Shown piece by piece: positions 4,898 through 42,743 of a DNA stretch of 64,000 nt. Source of the DNA: Deltaproteobacteria bacterium (GTDB taxonomy: Bacteria; UBA10199; JACPAL01); contig JACPAL010000004.1 in NCBI GenBank assembly GCA_016180855.1, positions 1 through 64,000 on the forward strand. Reading direction: 5' to 3'. The notes beneath the pieces were generated by a model that searched no databases, was not told where the DNA came from, and saw only the letters and a list, made by a program, of their open reading frames with translations. The translations under genes were made by a program, and so were the position numbers. Position 1 is the stretch's first letter, and each line of letters begins with the position of its first letter.

Positions 4898-7483
4898 TCA
4901 TTTGATTTCATAAACCTTCAGCACCTCATCTCCATAATGATTGATTACTTTTATAGCGATCTTGCCGGTTTTGGGTGTGTCGAAGGGTAGGCTCTTCGTC
5001 GAATAGAGAGCAGTCCATGCGGCCTCATCAATTTCAGCCTTTAGAGCACGTTTAAGTTTTTCGTAAGGCTCATCTGCTCCAGTAAAATAGGCATGGCGGA
5101 CGAAGAAACTCTCCCCATTGTAGGCTGTATCAATAAACCAACAGGCGATATCATCGGTCGAGCGATTACGGATCTCCCCAGTGGTTGGGTCGTAAACGTC
5201 CACGCCGTTAATTTCGACGACGATTTTGCCATCCTTTTGCTTCTTGATTTCAACGTCGGGTTCCCCAAAGACGGTGAAGAGATTCCCGGCGCCTGTTTTT
5301 TTGAGGAGTTCGTCTCCCATTGCGAGGTCTGGATTCATTCTGGCAATGAGTACCGTCAATTTACCAAAGTTTTTTGTTTCTTCATTCACGTGGGGATCAA
5401 AAGCAAAGCCGCAGATTACGAGAAGGTCGAAACCAACTCCTTTGACGGCTTCCTTTGCCGCCTCTTTCACAAGCTCGGGACCAACTGTTCCATTTTCAGG
5501 CCCAATACAGATCGCCACGCGGCGCGTTTTTCCAGTTTCTGAATATTCTCCGACTCCGTGAATATAGAGACCTGCATATGGTTCCAATCGATCAAAGATG
5601 AGCCTTTCTTTCTTGATCGTATTTTGAACACCTGCCTTTTTCAGATTTTCCAAAATCATTGTTTCGAACTGCCCTGAACCCGTTGCCTTAGTAGCTGCTT
5701 TTTCGGATTCTGGACGGTCGTCCGACGAGAGGACTCGGTGCGGAGAGAGGCTTTCAACGGTAAAGGGTCCTGTCACTCGAATGCGCCGATTGTCCTCATA
5801 GGGCTGATCGTAGAGGGTTTCAGTATCGGCGCGGCGAGCAATGGCCGCATCGATTTCTTGGAGGCTCATACCTTTCTTGATATCCGGATTGTTTGCTATT
5901 GATTTAAGAGTGACATGAGGAACTCGCTTATAGACAAAACCTTTTTTGACATCGCCTTCGGTTTTCTGATCAGGAGGCAGCTGCCCAGAAATTTCCGCCT
6001 CTTTTTTCAGACCCTCAGGTGAATCCGCAAGAATATAATATGGATATTTTGCTGCCATCAACCGTGTGCGGGCCAATGCCAAAGCAACACGCGAAGTATC
6101 ACAAGTAATCCACCGTCGGCCCCACTGCTCGGCCACATATGCCGTCGTCCCGCTCCCGCATGTCGGGTCGAACACTAGATCGCCGGGGTCGGTTGTCATC
6201 AAAATGCACCGCTTCACAGCTTCAGTTGCTGTCTGAACAACATAGACTTTTGGATCTGTCCGGCTCTGAATTCCTCCAATGTCCAACCAAACATTTGACA
6301 TTGGAGATGCTGCGAAATCATCCAAGAATCGCAGATAGCGAATGGAGTTGCCTTCAACAAAAATACGTCTTGCATACTCTAGACGCCTTAGGCCATCGAC
6401 TGTTGTCTTCCAATGCATCCCAGTAGGTGGTGCCCAGGATTGCCCTTCAAATTGAAAGGCTTGATCCGCATTTGATGGTCCTTGGGATGTCAGCTGATCT
6501 GATACGGCCAGACGATCCATTCCGTGCCCCAAGTCAGACGCGGCTTTAATAGTTTCGAGTGGACGGTACTTACTCGCACCAGTTTCCCCTTCACGCTTTT
6601 CGCCATAAAGACTTCTAAATTTGCACCTCTCTTTGCATTTCGCGTACCACAATACTTCATCACAGATATTGCTCACGAAATCTGAGGAGAAGCCCGTTGT
6701 TTTTGCAAATGCAATCTGAGATACGAAGTTCTCCGCACCGAGCACCTCATCCATTACACACCGCACGAGGTGGACGTTTTCATCGCCGATTTGGACGAAG
6801 ACACTGCCGCTTTCGGTGAGGAGTTCGCGGGCGGCGGCGAGGCGGTCGCGGAAGTAGGCAAGATAGGAGTGGATGCCAAGCCTCCAGGTGTCGCGAAAAG
6901 CACGGATTTGTTCGGGCTGGCGGGTGGCGTCTTCGGCCTTGCCGTCTTTCACGTCGCGTTTTCTGGTGGAGACCTGCCAGTTTGAACCGAAATTGATGCC
7001 ATAGGGAGGATCGACATAAATCATCTGAACCTTGCCTTTAAGGCCCTCCTTTTCGGCAAGGCTCGTCATAACCATAAGGGAGTCACCCAAGACCATTCGA
7101 TTCGCCCAATTCTGCTCGTGGTGGTAGAAGTCGATCAGATCTTCAAATTTGATACCGTTAAAATCAGCGAAGAGCGAGACTTGCCCAGGCGCTTCTTTTT
7201 TCGCCTCAGCCTTCAGATTCTCAATGATTGCTTGTGGGTGGATTTTTTCCTGGATGTAAATGGGGACCGCCGGCACAGCCAAATCTTGTGCATCCTGTTC
7301 GTCTTTGCCTTTCCAAACCAATTGAGGATCGAGGGAAGGGTCGCGCGGATAAAGCACCGTCTTAGGTTTTTTCTCTTGTTCAGCAACAAAATCGCGAAGT
7401 TCCTCCGTGGGAATGTTGCTGCGCTTGTCCTTGTGTTTGACAACCTCAATAGGAACGGATCTCTCCGCTTTTCTCCGAGCCAT
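4898..7483 (-). CDS. Site-specific DNA methyltransferase (type III-like mod subunit, beta class)
   Basis: 861-aa DNA methyltransferase, probably N6-adenine. Motif IV DPPYG is at residues 158-162. The SAM-binding motif FDPTCGSG comes later (about residue 435), the order of beta-class Mod proteins. The middle is the usual target-recognition region. It would modify host DNA against the adjacent restriction subunit, whose stop codon lies within this gene's ribosome-binding region (GAGGTAAAA before ATG), so the two are cotranscribed and probably coupled. The C-terminal 300 residues are long compared with classic EcoP-type Mod and are typical of the larger pair seen with helicase-nuclease partners of about 1000 aa. 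Confidence 0.9.
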   Translation of the reverse strand: MARRKAERSVPIEVVKHKDKRSNIPTEELRDFVAEQEKKPKTVLYPRDPSLDPQLVWKGKDEQDAQDLAVPAVPIYIQEKIHPQAIIENLKAEAKKEAPGQVSLFADFNGIKFEDLIDFYHHEQNWANRMVLGDSLMVMTSLAEKEGLKGKVQMIYVDPPYGINFGSNWQVSTRKRDVKDGKAEDATRQPEQIRAFRDTWRLGIHSYLAYFRDRLAAARELLTESGSVFVQIGDENVHLVRCVMDEVLGAENFVSQIAFAKTTGFSSDFVSNICDEVLWYAKCKERCKFRSLYGEKREGETGASKYRPLETIKAASDLGHGMDRLAVSDQLTSQGPSNADQAFQFEGQSWAPPTGMHWKTTVDGLRRLEYARRIFVEGNSIRYLRFLDDFAASPMSNVWLDIGGIQSRTDPKVYVVQTATEAVKRCILMTTDPGDLVFDPTCGSGTTAYVAEQWGRRWITCDTSRVALALARTRLMAAKYPYYILADSPEGLKKEAEISGQLPPDQKTEGDVKKGFVYKRVPHVTLKSIANNPDIKKGMSLQEIDAAIARRADTETLYDQPYEDNRRIRVTGPFTVESLSPHRVLSSDDRPESEKAATKATGSGQFETMILENLKKAGVQNTIKKERLIFDRLEPYAGLYIHGVGEYSETGKTRRVAICIGPENGTVGPELVKEAAKEAVKGVGFDLLVICGFAFDPHVNEETKNFGKLTVLIARMNPDLAMGDELLKKTGAGNLFTVFGEPDVEIKKQKDGKIVVEINGVDVYDPTTGEIRNRSTDDIACWFIDTAYNGESFFVRHAYFTGADEPYEKLKRALKAEIDEAAWTALYSTKSLPFDTPKTGKIAIKVINHYGDEVLKVYEIK

Positions 7484-7490
7484 TTTTACC

Positions 7491-10400
7491 TCACGTTTCC
7501 AACTTGATTTTTTTCAATTCACCGCTGATCGTATTCTTTGCATCCCAAGGATCTGCAATCTCAAGGAAGGCCCACCGGCCGAAACCGCCGTGATTATTGA
7601 CCGCAGGAACCCATAAATCCCTCGCCGTACCCACCTTAGCCGCCTTGTCCTTCTTCTTTTCACCCGTCACCTCAATAATGAGATTCAGCGGATCTCCTCT
7701 GCCATTGTGAAGGCACACGACGAAGTCCGGGATGTAATTCCTTTCCTCGCCGTTGATCGTGTAGGGAATCATGAAACCAAGATTGAAATTTTTCACGTAA
7801 CAGACAACGTCATCCAATTCATCCTCCAAGACCTGGGCCATTTTCTGTTCCCAGGATTCCGTATCGGCCACCACGTGGCTGATATGGCACTTGGATGGAT
7901 TGGTCACGTAGACGGGCCGGGTCGTGTCGAAATCGACGTATCGGGTGGAACCCACGGTGTCATAAGGTCGAAGAATCGGCTTGAGAATCTTTTCGCCTTG
8001 GTAAGATCGGACGATTGCCTTGTAAATCCGGTCGGAGGCGTCGTGGGCAAGCCCGATGAGCAAGAGCATCTGAGGGAAAGTGTTGTCTTTGCAGATCACG
8101 CATTCCGATAACCAGCGCTTGGCAACGGAAAGGAGTTGAGGAAAGAGCCACGATTTCACCTCGCTATCGAAGCGATGCTCCTTGGGCTTGTCCGATGAAA
8201 TTTCACCATCCGCCCGGAAGTATTTCTCCAACGTGAGTTTTGCGAGGAGGAAGGCTACTTCTTGCGGACGACGGCGCTTCAAATCGTCTAGGGTATGAAT
8301 GCTACTCTCACCAACGATGGGGGCATTTTCCGTCTTGGTCGGGACGTCGGCGGTCGTCAGGGCCAGTTTTGAATCATCCGTAAATCGAACCTCAAACCGT
8401 TCCTCCGGCATTTCAAACCGGTAGCCCAAGAGACGCGGGAACGTGATTTCACAATCAATACGATCCTCCAATGCACGCACGCGAGTAGGAGTCGGACCGG
8501 GCTTTGGATTGGAATTTGATCCGGAACAAGGAATAAATGAGAAAGGAACGCCGTAGACCTCGGCATACTCAGGCGTAAAGAAACTGCGTTCATCCGCCGC
8601 GTAACTCATGCGACGCAATCCACGACCGACCACTTGTTCACATAGAAGCTGCGTTCCGAAGGCGCGAACGCCAAGGATGTGAGTCACCGTATTGGCGTCC
8701 CAACCCTCCGTTAGCATGGAGACGGACACGACGCACTTCACGTGTTCGCCGAGCTTCCCCGGCTTGCCAACGGTGTTCATCACTTCGCGAAGGAGATCTT
8801 CATCCGTGAGTTCTTCGGCATCTCGACCCGGGAAACGAACACGGTATTCTTCTTTGAACTCATCGATTTCCTTCTTTGCCATAAGTTTGAATTCATCACT
8901 CATGGCTTCACCCGATTCGAGCTGTTCGCTGTCAATCAAGACGGTGTTTGGGTGCAGAGCCCACTTGTGGTGCTCTTCATTGCTGAAAATGGGTAGTTTG
9001 CCCGGAACAACGACGGAAGAACCGTCAGGCATCGGTTTTTCCCATCCCGCGACATAGTCAAAGACCAGCTTGGAAACATTGGTATTGTTGCACACCACGA
9101 TAAAGACAGGAGGCGTCAGGCCTTTGAGCAGACGCGCTTCTTCGTTTTCCGCCCATCTGCGATAATTTTTTTCGTAATTTCCATAAAGGCTTTGGAGCGC
9201 GCCTTCCAATTCAACGGGAAGTTTCGGGTCTCCGAGGATCTCATCGGTTCGCCGCCCCTTCTTGGGTAGATGCTCACGAATGCGCAACCACAGGTCACGA
9301 TAGGTCGGCTGTTCACCGGTCATGGAATCGTCGGCCACGGGCACACGAGGCACCTTCACAATCCCGGATTCAATGGCGTCAATCAGGGAAAAATCCGAAA
9401 CAACCCATGGGAAAAGAGTTCCCTCGGGATACCCGGAACCTTTCAGAAAGAAGGGAGTCGCGGAGAGATCGTAAACCACTTTGGCGCCGATCTTCGACTT
9501 GATCGCCTCAAGCCCTGAGATCCAGATACGAGCCTCTTCGTCTCGTTTCTCCGCCTCTTTCTTTTCGTCCCCTTTAAGTTGCTCTCCTTCACCGTCAGGT
9601 TTTCGGCGGTAACAATGGTGGGCTTCATCATTGATGACCATGATATTCTTCTTGTTACCGAATTCACGGCAGACCCGATGGACCATTTGGTCGGGCGTTT
9701 CCGTAAAGGGACTATTTCCTTCACGGGCGAGAATACTCTTGGTAAGTTTTCCGGCCGAAACGCGTTCCTTAAGTTTGAAGGCATGGAAGTTGGTGATTAG
9801 AATTTTGGCCTTGCCGAGTTCCATCATCAAATCTGATGAAAGGACGTCGCGCTGGCGGTAATAATTTTCCGGATCGTTCGGAAGAAGGACTCGTAGACGA
9901 TCGCGGATCGTAATGCCCGGAGTAACAATCAGAAAAGAATCTGAGAAACGAGCGTCTTGAGGATTGGCAAGTTTGTTGAGCGCGTGCCAAGCGATGAGCA
10001 TCGCCATGACAACGGTTTTACCGCTGCCGGTCGCCATTTTAAGGGCCATGCGAAATAGCAGAGGATTGGCGGCCTCGTTTTCCCGGCGCAGGTCGTTCTC
10101 GATCCAGGGATCATATTTGCCGGCGACCTCGGTGATGTAGATCGCCGTCTCAAGGGCTTCAATTTGGCAAAAGAAGAGTTTCTTGTCGCGGGCCGGATTA
10201 TTCCAATACTCCAGCAGAGCGCGCGTGGTTTTTGTGACGCTGGTATAGCCGCCGCTTCGCCATTGGGAAACTTTTGCGCGAACGCGATTGATAAACTTGT
10301 TTTCTTCGACCCGGTCTTGAGTCCATTCCGTATCAAATTGTAGTTGCTTGCCCTTCTTCTTGGGCCTCGCGACGGGGATAAAGTAAGAGCTGATCCGACG

Positions 10401-40179: not shown

Positions 40180-40252
40180 GGGCCGTTAGCTCAGTTGGCA
40201 GAGCAGCTGGCTCTTAACCAGCGGGTCACAGGTTCGAGCCCTGTACGGCCCA
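40180..40252 (+). tRNA. tRNA-Lys (anticodon CTT)
   Basis: 73 bases: acceptor GGGCCGT pairs with ACGGCCC. The anticodon stem GCTGG/CCAGC encloses CTT at 40213-40215, and the T-arm is CAGGTTCGAGCCCTG. CCA is not encoded. The retroelement relic starts about 20 bases downstream. Confidence 0.95.
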
Positions 40253-40274
40253 CAAATTATCGCCGGGGGCCGTG

Positions 40275-40299
40275 GCGGCTTATCGCCGCCGCTCTCCAG
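40275..40299 (+). pseudogene. Relic of a DGR variable or template repeat
   Basis: These 25 bases equal the joined parts 41838-41849 and 41896-41912 of the template repeat, as if the bases between were lost by recombination at the shared TCGC. Downstream similarity continues weakly (ACTC, then TG.TGT) with a C-to-G change where template and variable-repeat ends usually differ. The position directly upstream of avd is where DGR target genes commonly end. Confidence 0.55.
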
Positions 40300-40344
40300 G
40301 ACTCATTGGTGTAATGTAAACTTTTCCCCTTTGGTTTTTTACCC

Positions 40345-40372
40345 TTGGCCGGTCACTTAAGTGACCGGCCAA
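40345..40372. terminator. Perfect 28-bp palindrome before avd
   Basis: TTGGCCGGTCACTT followed by its exact reverse complement (centre TTAA), then an A/T run. It is a probable bidirectional terminator, 16 bases before the avd start. Confidence 0.6.
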
Positions 40373-40388
40373 AAATTTAAAAATTTCC

Positions 40389-40736
40389 ATGGCCCCCGTT
40401 ACTCCTCAAATCATCACAAAGGTCTATGACCTTCTCCTCTATCTGATTCCACAAGTGTCAAAATTCCCACGATCCCAACGGTACCTGGCAGGGGAGCGCC
40501 TGGGAAATATCAGTCTGGATGTCCTGGAGATGCTTTTGGAAGCGGTCTATTCCCGGGAAAAAACCATTCTCTTGGAGAGAGCCAATGTCAAACTGGAAAC
40601 GGCCCGCTACTACGTCCGGCTCTGCAAGGATTTGAAATTAATGAATCTCCATAGCTATGAAATCATTTCAAAAATGATCAATGAAGTCGGCGTTCAATTG
40701 GGTGGTTGGCTTAAACAGCAAAGATCGCGATCATGA
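40389..40736 (+). CDS. avd: Avd-like four-helix-bundle protein (DGR accessory)
   Basis: 115-aa four-helix-bundle protein (IITKVYDLLLYLIPQVSKFPRSQRYLAGERL, then ERANVKLETARYYVRLCKDLKLM). This is the family of the accessory variability determinant, which binds the reverse transcriptase of diversity-generating retroelements, and of the related S23-intervening proteins. The stop overlaps the start of the reverse transcriptase gene (ATGA at 40733-40736). It appears intact although its partner is frameshifted. Confidence 0.85.
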   Translation: MAPVTPQIITKVYDLLLYLIPQVSKFPRSQRYLAGERLGNISLDVLEMLLEAVYSREKTILLERANVKLETARYYVRLCKDLKLMNLHSYEIISKMINEVGVQLGGWLKQQRSRS

Positions 40737-41772
40737 GGCGGCACAGGAATCTCTATCCTGGGATCATTTCATTTCAGAATCTTCTTCTTGCCTCCAGGCT
40801 GGCCCAGCGTGGGAAACGTTTTAAGGATTCTGCTGCCCGATTTAATTTCCATCTTGAGCGAGAGTTGTGGCGGCTGCATCATGAGTTGGCAGAGAAACGA
40901 TACAAACCGGGGAAGTATCACCACTTCCGGATTTATGAACCGAAGGAGCGCCTGATCAGCGCCGCCCCTTACCGAGACCGCGTGGTTCACCATGCCATTC
41001 ACAATATTCTGGAACCGATTTTCGAGCCGCTTTTCATTTATGATTCTTATGCAACGAGAAAAGGGAAAGGAGCCCATGCGGCCATCGATCGCTTTCAAGA
41101 GTTTGCCCACAAGTCACGGTATGTCTTAAAATGCGACGTTCAAAAATACTTTCCGAGTGTTGATCGGGATATCCTGCTGGGACTCATTGAACGAAAGGTA
41201 GCTTGCGCGGATACGATCTGGCTGATCAAAAGAATTTTGGATTCCTCTCAAGAGATGGTAAAGGCGGAGCGCACTTTGCATCCATCCTTCCGACAGGTAT
41301 CCCCATCGGCAATCTAACATCCCAGTTCTTTGCCAACATTTATCTCAACGGCCTCGATCATTTTATTAAGGAGCGACTTAAATGCCGATATTATCTCCGT
41401 TACATGGATGACTTCGTCATTTTTCACGATGACAAGAATTTTCTGTGGCAGGCAAAGGTGGAGGTTCAAAAATATCTTCGGGCGCTGAGACTTACTATTC
41501 ATGAAAACAAATGCCGTATTTTTAATACGAGGAACGGTATCCCCTTTTTGGGACTGGTCATTTCTCGGGATCGGAGACGGATCAGGAGATCCAACCTCCT
41601 GCGGTTTAAAAAACGATTGAGAAGGTTCCAGATTTTTTACGGCAAGGGAACAATCGAATGGAGACATCTACATCAATCCATCCAGTCTTGGATCGGCCAT
41701 GCAAGGCATGCGGATACGAGGCAACTGAGAGGATTGATTTTCTCCGAAGTTGTGTTTAGGAAAGGCTCATAA
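40733..41772 (+). pseudogene. DGR-type reverse transcriptase, broken by one frameshift
   Basis: Two frames together give a near full-length RT. The first (40733-about 41280) has ISAAPYRDRVVHHAI and motif A CDVQKYFPSVD. The second (from about 41280) has GIPIGNLTSQFFANIYLN, with the SQ of DGR enzymes instead of SP, the active site YMDDFVIF, and the C-terminal SWIGHARHADT. The total span of 1040 bases is one short of a whole number of codons (1041), consistent with a single base lost between about 41250 and 41300. Without frameshift correction no complete enzyme can be made. Programmed frameshifting is possible but no slippery site is obvious. Confidence 0.82.
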
Positions 41773-41791
41773 AGGGGGATTGATCAAAGGT

Positions 41792-41930
41792 GATGCGCGG
41801 CGGTTCCTGGAACAATCAAGATCCAGAGAACTTGCGAGCGGCTTATCGCAACAACAACCACCCGGACAACCGGAACGACAATGTCGGGTTCCGCGTCGCC
41901 GCCGCTCTCCAGCACTCCCTGCTGTGGAGT
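41792..41930 (+). repeat. DGR template repeat (TR)
   Basis: Begins 20 bases after the RT stop. Read in one frame it gives [18 protein letters not shown] and [17 protein letters not shown], the formylglycine-enzyme/C-type-lectin-like sequence typical of DGR templates, dense in AAC/AAT codons whose adenines are mutated during copying. The GC-rich end (TCGCCGCCGCTCTCCAG, 41896-41912) matches the expected initiation element. No variable-repeat target protein is present in the window; only a relic lies at 40275-40299. Confidence 0.8.
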
Positions 41931-41998
41931 CACAAGCTTCAGGCCAGAATCCTGATCTTTACGGAGTTCAGGAGTGCGCTTGAGGGAGTCCAGATCAA

Positions 41999-42532
41999 TC
42001 ACCCTGGTTCTGCTAGCAATAGCGAACCGAAGAGCGAAGTGCCCCGCCTGTCATTCGTAGCCCCGTAAGGGATGAGCGTGATGGGCGGGCTTTTTACTGA
42101 ACGTCGTCGGCGATTTTTGAGTTTTTCAAGCAGTGCGGTCGTGGAAAGAACTTTTACAAAATTCTGATCCCTCAATTCTGCATCATTCGACCATAACGGG
42201 ATTCCAAGGTGCAGGGCACACGCGAGGTACGGGGCGTCTTCTTGATGAGGGGCTATTTCCAGTGCCTTACTCATGAATGAATCATAATCGTTCTTGTCTA
42301 CGACGTGAATGCCGCTTGTCAGGGTTGAGAAGAGTTGGTCGAAATCAGGAATCGCTTTGATACGATTGGCAAGCCGATTCCGAAGAACCTTCTGGGCCTC
42401 CCTGAAAAGATCTGCAGGTGCGTACAATTCCAGTCTTTCGTCTAACAGGAGGTGTCTTGATGTAGCAACTTTCAGAAAGGCGGAGATAAAAATGTTGGCA
42501 TCGACGACCAGCCGGATCGGATCATCGGACAT
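41999..42532 (-). CDS. PIN-domain toxin (VapC-like)
   Basis: 177 aa. A PIN RNase fold: [14 protein letters not shown] with the first Asp, E in the middle (FREAQKVL), and [27 protein letters not shown] with the later acidic residues. It overlaps the antitoxin gene by 11 bases. The last 40 residues ([18 protein letters not shown]...) are not typical of PIN proteins and may be read-out into flanking DNA near the template repeat. Confidence 0.85.
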
Positions 42533-42743
42533 GCTTTTTCCAGACCCTTTCCTTTACCTCTTTGGTCGCTTCCTGGGCCTCTTTTTCGGTCAGGCCCTCT
42601 GTAGCCAGGATATGATCCATTTTTTCCAAAAGTTTCGCTTTTTGAATGATCGCTTGCCGGGCGACTTCCGACCAATTGATCTCAGGAAACTCACGCATCT
42701 TCTCCCTCAATTCTTCGGGGATCGCTAAGGTTAAACTGGCCAT
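42522..42743 (-). CDS. Antitoxin partner of the PIN toxin
   Basis: 73 aa. SLTLAIPEELREKMREFPEINWSEVARQAIIQKAKLLEKMD is the ribbon-helix-helix-type N-terminus of many VapB-like antitoxins; the C-terminal helix would cover the toxin. The toxin start lies inside its 3' end. A palindrome 26 bases upstream is a likely operator. Confidence 0.82.
   Translation of the reverse strand: MASLTLAIPEELREKMREFPEINWSEVARQAIIQKAKLLEKMDHILATEGLTEKEAQEATKEVKERVWKKHVR

Follow-up and report, generated by a model that had tools for sequence, protein, structure and literature searches.

The stretch of DNA analysed here (the window) comprises 64,000 nucleotides from a Deltaproteobacteria bacterium (GenBank assembly GCA_016180855.1, contig JACPAL010000004.1, positions 1 to 64,000) and carries a diversity-generating retroelement (DGR) whose reverse transcriptase (RT) is split across two reading frames. 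This raises the question of whether the split is an accident in one decaying gene or a state that RTs of this kind can enter and leave. We propose that a slipped-strand (phase-variation) switch lies inside the DGR RT of a phylum-specific clade, a reading which we regard as likely, and that the window copy is probably locked off.

A preliminary description, made from the letters of the window alone, had recognised avd, a DGR-type RT and an intact adenine-rich template repeat (TR) in this order, and profile matches, motifs and alignment with a relative agree with it in features and coordinates. The avd gene (40389–40736, + strand) is intact and encodes a DGR accessory protein of 115 aa, which matched NCBIfam DivGenRetAVD (NF033474, 6.6e-30, exceeding the cut-off of that profile) and Pfam bAvd (PF22296, 1.6e-18). 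The RT, spanning 1040 bases (40733–41772), is indeed split into an N-terminal half in a first frame (40733–41317, + strand, with a stop ending at 41317; RVT_1, 1.7e-8) and a C-terminal half with YMDD in a second frame (41203–41772, + strand; RVT_1, 1.3e-14), which reads GIPIGNLTSQFF from 41296 and whose conserved portion is 41296–41772. Both open reading frames (ORFs) matched RVT_1 above cut-off, and the DGR-type motifs GIPIGNLTSQ (motif 4, SQ) and YMDD are present in this RT split over two frames. The continuous RT of a relative, locus L033, whose closest solved chain is the DGR RT 8ub7 (7e-52), aligned to the window in two pieces, residues 2–173 in one frame and residues 183–343 in another (tblastn), and therefore only a short loop between the RT halves is disturbed. 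The TR (about 41790–41925, + strand), aligned with the TRs of seven relatives, has a coding sense of FGE-sulfatase type (PF03781, 2.2e-6), which includes WNN/RNNN/GFRVA.

A scan of named genomes and of 46 genomes of the window's phylum yielded ten further clade RTs, one of them (L203) truncated. All 11 DGR RTs found in the phylum, window included, form one clade, supported at 96/92 in a 56-RT tree. In 8 of the 10 judgeable clade RTs, a perfect tandem array lies directly 5′ of motif 4 (GIPIGNLTSQ), at the site which in the window is the break point of the RT. The array unit has 4 bases, once 8 bases, and takes the forms CAAT, CAGC, CACT, CATC, CAGA and CATCACTC. The arrays are CAAT over 48 nt in L029, CAGC over 38 nt in L030 and 42 nt in L202, CACT over 32 nt in L032, CATC over 34 nt in L204, with (CATC)8, CAGA over 16 nt in L200, which reads CATCCATC(CAGA)4, and the 8-base unit over 37 nt in L201. 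L031 (the same locus as L205) has CAGC over 20 nt up to the contig end; this contig stops exactly within the array (position 1), as expected if reads disagreed on its length. L033, nested in the clade as the sister of L032 (99/90), has no array at this site and an RT in frame.

All eight loci with a known left flank have TTGCA directly 5′ of the array or relic, in differing reading frames. CA is present in every unit, which may be explained by common descent, and a 4-base unit containing CA yields no stop codon in any frame. In the window, we found at this place a repeat-tract relic, TTGCATCCATCCTTCCGACA (41276–41295, + strand), made up of TTG, then two CATC units, then decay; by its sequence, this tract is a decayed short form of those of L204 and L200, the array having worn down to TTGCATCCATCCTTCC.

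Arrays of at least 16 nt with a unit length not divisible by three were absent from the RTs of 155 other DGRs, as were arrays of at least 13 nt from the RTs of 21 more (one 7-base array, in L251, lay outside the RT). The count is therefore 8/10 in the clade versus 0/176 in other DGR RTs (Fisher 1.5e-12), some of these controls being cut by contig ends, with 149 of the 176 near full length. A wider scan of 385 genomes gave no RT array beyond the phylum, and the viral contigs and phages searched held distant DGR RTs only, with no arrays in viral contigs. When the 46 phylum genomes (~105 Mb) were scanned for six successive CANY units, a pattern picked after the RT arrays were known and counting no other kinds of repeat, 7 tracts were found, 5 in DGR RTs and 2 intergenic. 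The intergenic ones are L207 (G020:C14:48709-48752) and L209 (G024:C143:10439-10466), the latter near a DksA-like gene.

Could the arrays be assembly artefacts, or neutral microsatellites? The genomes are metagenome-assembled and the L031 contig ends within its array, which would suit such an origin; nevertheless, we found arrays in seven genomes, with six different units, always at one site, and 0 tetranucleotide arrays of at least 20 nt in 1.09 Mb of control DNA, masked bases aside, which makes this explanation highly improbable. An assembly error, which the preliminary description had named as a possible refutation, likewise cannot explain a pattern common to seven other genomes.

The reading frame changes at the array or relic in 7 of the 9 clade RTs for which both halves are available (window, L029, L030, L032, L201, L202 and L204), the other two (L033 and L200) being in frame. 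Split RTs number 2 among the 149 near-full-length controls (versus 7/9 in the clade, Fisher 3e-9); these two, L178 and L267, lie outside the clade, have no arrays, and look like ordinary frameshifts or errors. No homopolymer tracts were found in the control RTs. The frame offset is 1 in L029, L201 and L204 and 2 in the window, L030, L032 and L202; L029 and L032, which belong to one genome, differ in both unit and offset. It had been suggested that the window RT lost one base near 41250–41300. Comparison with close relatives does place the break in the loop before motif 4, but this loop varies in length modulo 3 between sister elements and the break is not placeable as one lost base; that account is disfavoured because six further clade RTs break at the same loop, at 4- or 8-base arrays and in both wrong frames. 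The stretch from LDSS to TTGCA also differs among loci in its length modulo 3, a variation that could be tolerated only with a resettable frame.

In every comparable locus both frames are open across the array: the N-half frame of the relatives reaches the array end or beyond, and the C-half frame extends back into the array. The first RT frame of the window likewise stays open through the relic up to the stop at 41317. Because both frames are open, unit number alone decides whether the RT halves are joined. An alternative would be programmed frameshifting, in which slippage of the ribosome or polymerase at the tract yields a complete RT from an out-of-frame gene; this would account for variable repeats (VRs) that look recently mutated though array-bearing RTs are, with few exceptions, out of frame. 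However, both wrong offsets are found, so that no single slip direction serves, the units differ, no common slippery heptamer was seen and L033 is in frame with no array, and we consider this mechanism very unlikely. Action by frameshifting, one of the possibilities raised for the window element, is thus disfavoured, the offset not being constant across relatives, and ribosomal frameshifting at A_AAG near 41260 was rejected as a candidate on the same differences. Nor is it at all probable that the RT is a split enzyme, its halves made as separate proteins which then assemble. Both halves are conserved and open, as a split enzyme would require, but the C-half frame of L030, L032 and L202 has no start codon upstream of the motif and none is consistent elsewhere, and the RT of L033 is a single chain.

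Both RT halves are under constraint, as divergence falls mostly at third codon positions in all pairs. Between the window and L201, divergence at the three codon positions is 0.22/0.17/0.53 in the N half and 0.24/0.18/0.54 in the C half, and between L031 and L202 it is 0.16/0.09/0.46 in the C half. The VRs add a record of activity. Six relatives (L029, L030, L032, L033, L201 and L202) have a VR in a full-length target gene, and in each case the target is an FGE-sulfatase protein which ends in or at the VR. Across seven loci, 119 of 119 core mismatches between VR and TR fall at TR adenines: 16 in L029, 15 in L030, 21 in L032, 16 in L202 and 19 in L201, all five with an out-of-frame RT, 14 in L033 with its RT in frame, and 18 (18/18 at A) in L203 with its truncated RT. 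These relatives' elements have therefore been recently active, and such activity coexists with an RT that, as assembled, is out of frame.

These results bear on the rival explanation of a simple pseudogene, in which ordinary mutation removed a base and the element is in decay, in the window and its relatives alike. The window copy lacks its target and most of its VR, its array has decayed, and the authors of the DiGReF survey, who reported single cases of split DGR RTs with adenine-only VR changes, took them as very recent inactivation (PMC3521204). Nevertheless, all seven breaks fall in the same loop, six of these coincide with a repeat array, and the remainder of the RT is unbroken; both halves are constrained; and all 119 VR changes are at adenines, in seven loci of which five have an out-of-frame RT. 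A pseudogene suits the present state of the window but not the clade, for which we consider it unlikely. Given the recurrence at one repeat-bearing loop across the clade, a reversible switch is the simpler explanation than recent inactivation.

The position of the array in the RT protein is compatible with changes in its length. In the RT of BPP-1 (8ub7), the corresponding stretch is very short (VLPD-EGVGIPIGS), and other DGR RTs have a variable loop of ~24 residues there. A predicted model of the in-frame, array-bearing L200 RT, which lacks approximately the first 64 RT residues and was built on 22 sequences, had a mean pLDDT (predicted local distance difference test) of 78.6 and 8ub7 as its best match (Foldseek rank 1); its residues 115–130, the array region, have pLDDT <50, which predicts disorder, and are flanked by better-predicted helices. 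According to this model, a change in loop length should be tolerated while the frame is kept.

We therefore return to the slipped-strand switch. The tandem array of 4-base (once 8-base) units in a disordered, length-tolerant loop just before motif 4 would act as a contingency locus, in which slipped-strand mispairing gains or loses a unit and thereby brings the downstream RT half into frame or takes it out, a change in unit number being by itself sufficient to join the halves. Targeted adenine mutagenesis of the target gene would thereby be toggled heritably and at random, with ON cells diversifying the FGE-type target and OFF cells keeping the present variant. Three elements of this proposal are inferences, namely variation of unit number within present-day populations, a working enzyme from the in-frame gene, and an advantage for which switching is selected. 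With less assurance than for the switch itself, we lean towards a wider account in which a minority of cells are heritably ON for targeted hypermutation and the majority OFF, the array being kept and its unit replaced over evolution, with the window as a leftover after abandonment.

Several points weigh against this proposal. None of the six comparable array-bearing RTs is in frame, rearranged L200 aside, for which the chance is 0.09 if one third are ON; this points to OFF as the prevailing state, unless the frames are joined by other means or a step has been overlooked. The in-frame L200 has itself lost avd and the RT N terminus. The window has no perfect tandem array with a unit length not divisible by three, only the decayed tract, which alone is too short to count as a repeat array. 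Repeat units can be miscounted in short-read assemblies, and with one assembly per species no within-species variation in array length could be seen.

How, then, did the window copy reach its present state? On this reading the element has left the switching regime in this genome: its array is short and degraded, its RT no longer reads in one frame, and its target gene has been deleted along with most of the VR. The preliminary description had found no target gene with a VR in the window; there is indeed no target gene, but a VR remnant is present just outside the range then noted, at 40275–40312 (+ strand; a 30-nt repeat at 87%, D1, and direct reading of the sequence). The repeat of the TR 3′ end occupies 40283–40312 (87% identity); 40275–40286 equals TR positions 41838–41849 and 40283–40299 equals 41896–41912, with the junction over a common TCGC, and the stub is thus a VR with an internal deletion of ~50 nt. 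It ends in CAGGAC, the VR-type 3′ end, where the window TR reads CAGCAC, a difference also found in all six relatives compared. Between the stub and avd lies a perfect 14-nt inverted repeat (40345–40372), found by repeat search and by comparison with L030 and L202, whose position and preceding ACCCTTGG are as in the post-VR hairpins of these two loci; L032 has no clear hairpin after its VR. A distinct 3′ end of the type known as initiation of mutagenic homology (IMH) and a post-VR hairpin are thus both present in the window, as in relatives.

Because a VR stub and inverted repeat stand ahead of avd, the target gene and most of the VR have been lost, and the window element is the remnant of a VR-avd-RT-TR cassette, a DGR relic rather than a complete DGR. 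The deletion ends directly downstream of a tRNA-Lys (CTT) gene, the left neighbour of the cassette (40180–40253, + strand; ARAGORN, and Rfam tRNA, 1.7e-14). Searching the assembled genome for a VR cognate to the window TR matched only the TR itself and the stub, with no target gene, which disfavours the earlier suggestion of action in trans, and the window RT is the only RT of its kind in the genome. With the array too short to slip often and the target gone, the copy is probably permanently silent, and its inactivity in this genome, as proposed previously, is supported as probable.

The same genome has an FGE-type target gene with a VR-type end on another contig (C6:17669-18490, L002), an orphan not cognate to the window TR. 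The protein that it encodes terminates with a VR-like stretch (DDDARDARAANRDYDYPSYRYGVDGF), after which comes the CAGGAC end, and its VR is most similar to that of L201 (G003; 78%). Neither avd nor an RT was seen beside this gene, and a search for a matching TR found none, so that the source genome has both a cassette lacking a target and a target lacking a cassette, apparently derived from two different DGRs.

The elements of this clade resemble the BPP-1 DGR (the bRT-Avd ribonucleoprotein, PDB 8ub7 among other entries) in RT sequence and fold, Avd, adenine-specific transfer from TR to VR, the IMH-like 3′ end and the hairpin after the VR. They differ in gene order, here VR-avd-RT-TR, and the very short RT loop of BPP-1 is without a repeat switch. 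The interrupted RTs of the DiGReF survey (PMC3521204) share the broken RT and adenine-only differences between VR and TR, but arose through scattered single events (nonsense, insertion, frameshift), whereas here the break recurs at one repeat-bearing loop across a clade.

The lic and mod genes of Haemophilus are tetranucleotide contingency loci, with arrays inside the gene that turn it OFF in two of three frames. As in the clade RTs, the in-gene arrays have 4-base units, several of them identical to those described here; unlike the RTs, these loci switch surface or methylation genes, whereas here the array lies mid-gene in a targeted mutator. The modA gene is phase-variable (PMC4525171). The mutL mutability switch of Salmonella (PMC2955026) also toggles mutability by slipped-strand repeat change, but with 6-base units and as a genome-wide mismatch-repair mutator, whereas here one locus would be mutated by reverse transcription. 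We found no report of a repeat-switched DGR RT in the open-licence literature. The natural control of DGR activity has been described as an open question and a frontier (PMC12875486), and contingency loci and DGRs have been named as alternative routes to diversity (PMC3521204). If the proposal is correct, the RT array would be a simple, genetically encoded control of DGR activity which combines the two routes into one second-order switch and, on the wider account, a built-in random switch of evolvability by which useful variants are kept while a few cells continue searching. Out-of-frame DGR RTs should then not automatically be counted dead, and the reading predicts variation in unit number at one site in long reads.

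Some of the relatives have features of their own. Genome G022 carries two damaged DGRs, L203 (C70), in which the beginning of avd runs straight into RT motif 4, with the junction at the edge of the expected array site, and L204 (C36), in which avd is fused into the RT; these fusions could be deletions or misassembly. In L200 (G045:C56), a short sequence carrying TCAGACGG inverted repeats, possibly a mobile element like a miniature inverted-repeat transposable element, occurs in copies on both sides of the RT and TR, next to the place from which avd and the N-terminal part of the RT are absent. Downstream of the DGR of L033 are several 7-base tandem arrays (TCGTGTA, ACGATAC; 6989–7082 and 8722–8749).

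On the right side of the window cassette, the TR is followed by the conserved 3′ domain of a presumed TR RNA (41926–42110, + strand), with GGGAGTCCAGATC, ACCGAAGAG, CGTA and a terminal hairpin, as judged by alignment and consensus fold of 8 loci. This fold is plausible, with a covariation term of about zero overall and compensatory changes in the terminal hairpin; in the Rfam search the tRNA alone matched, a mir-587 match far below threshold being disregarded. A PIN-domain gene (PF10130; 41999–42532, − strand) extends antisense into that 3′ domain of the TR RNA, and its C terminus is therefore encoded by DGR sequence. A small ORF (42522–42743, − strand) overlaps the start of this gene, as toxin-antitoxin pairs do.
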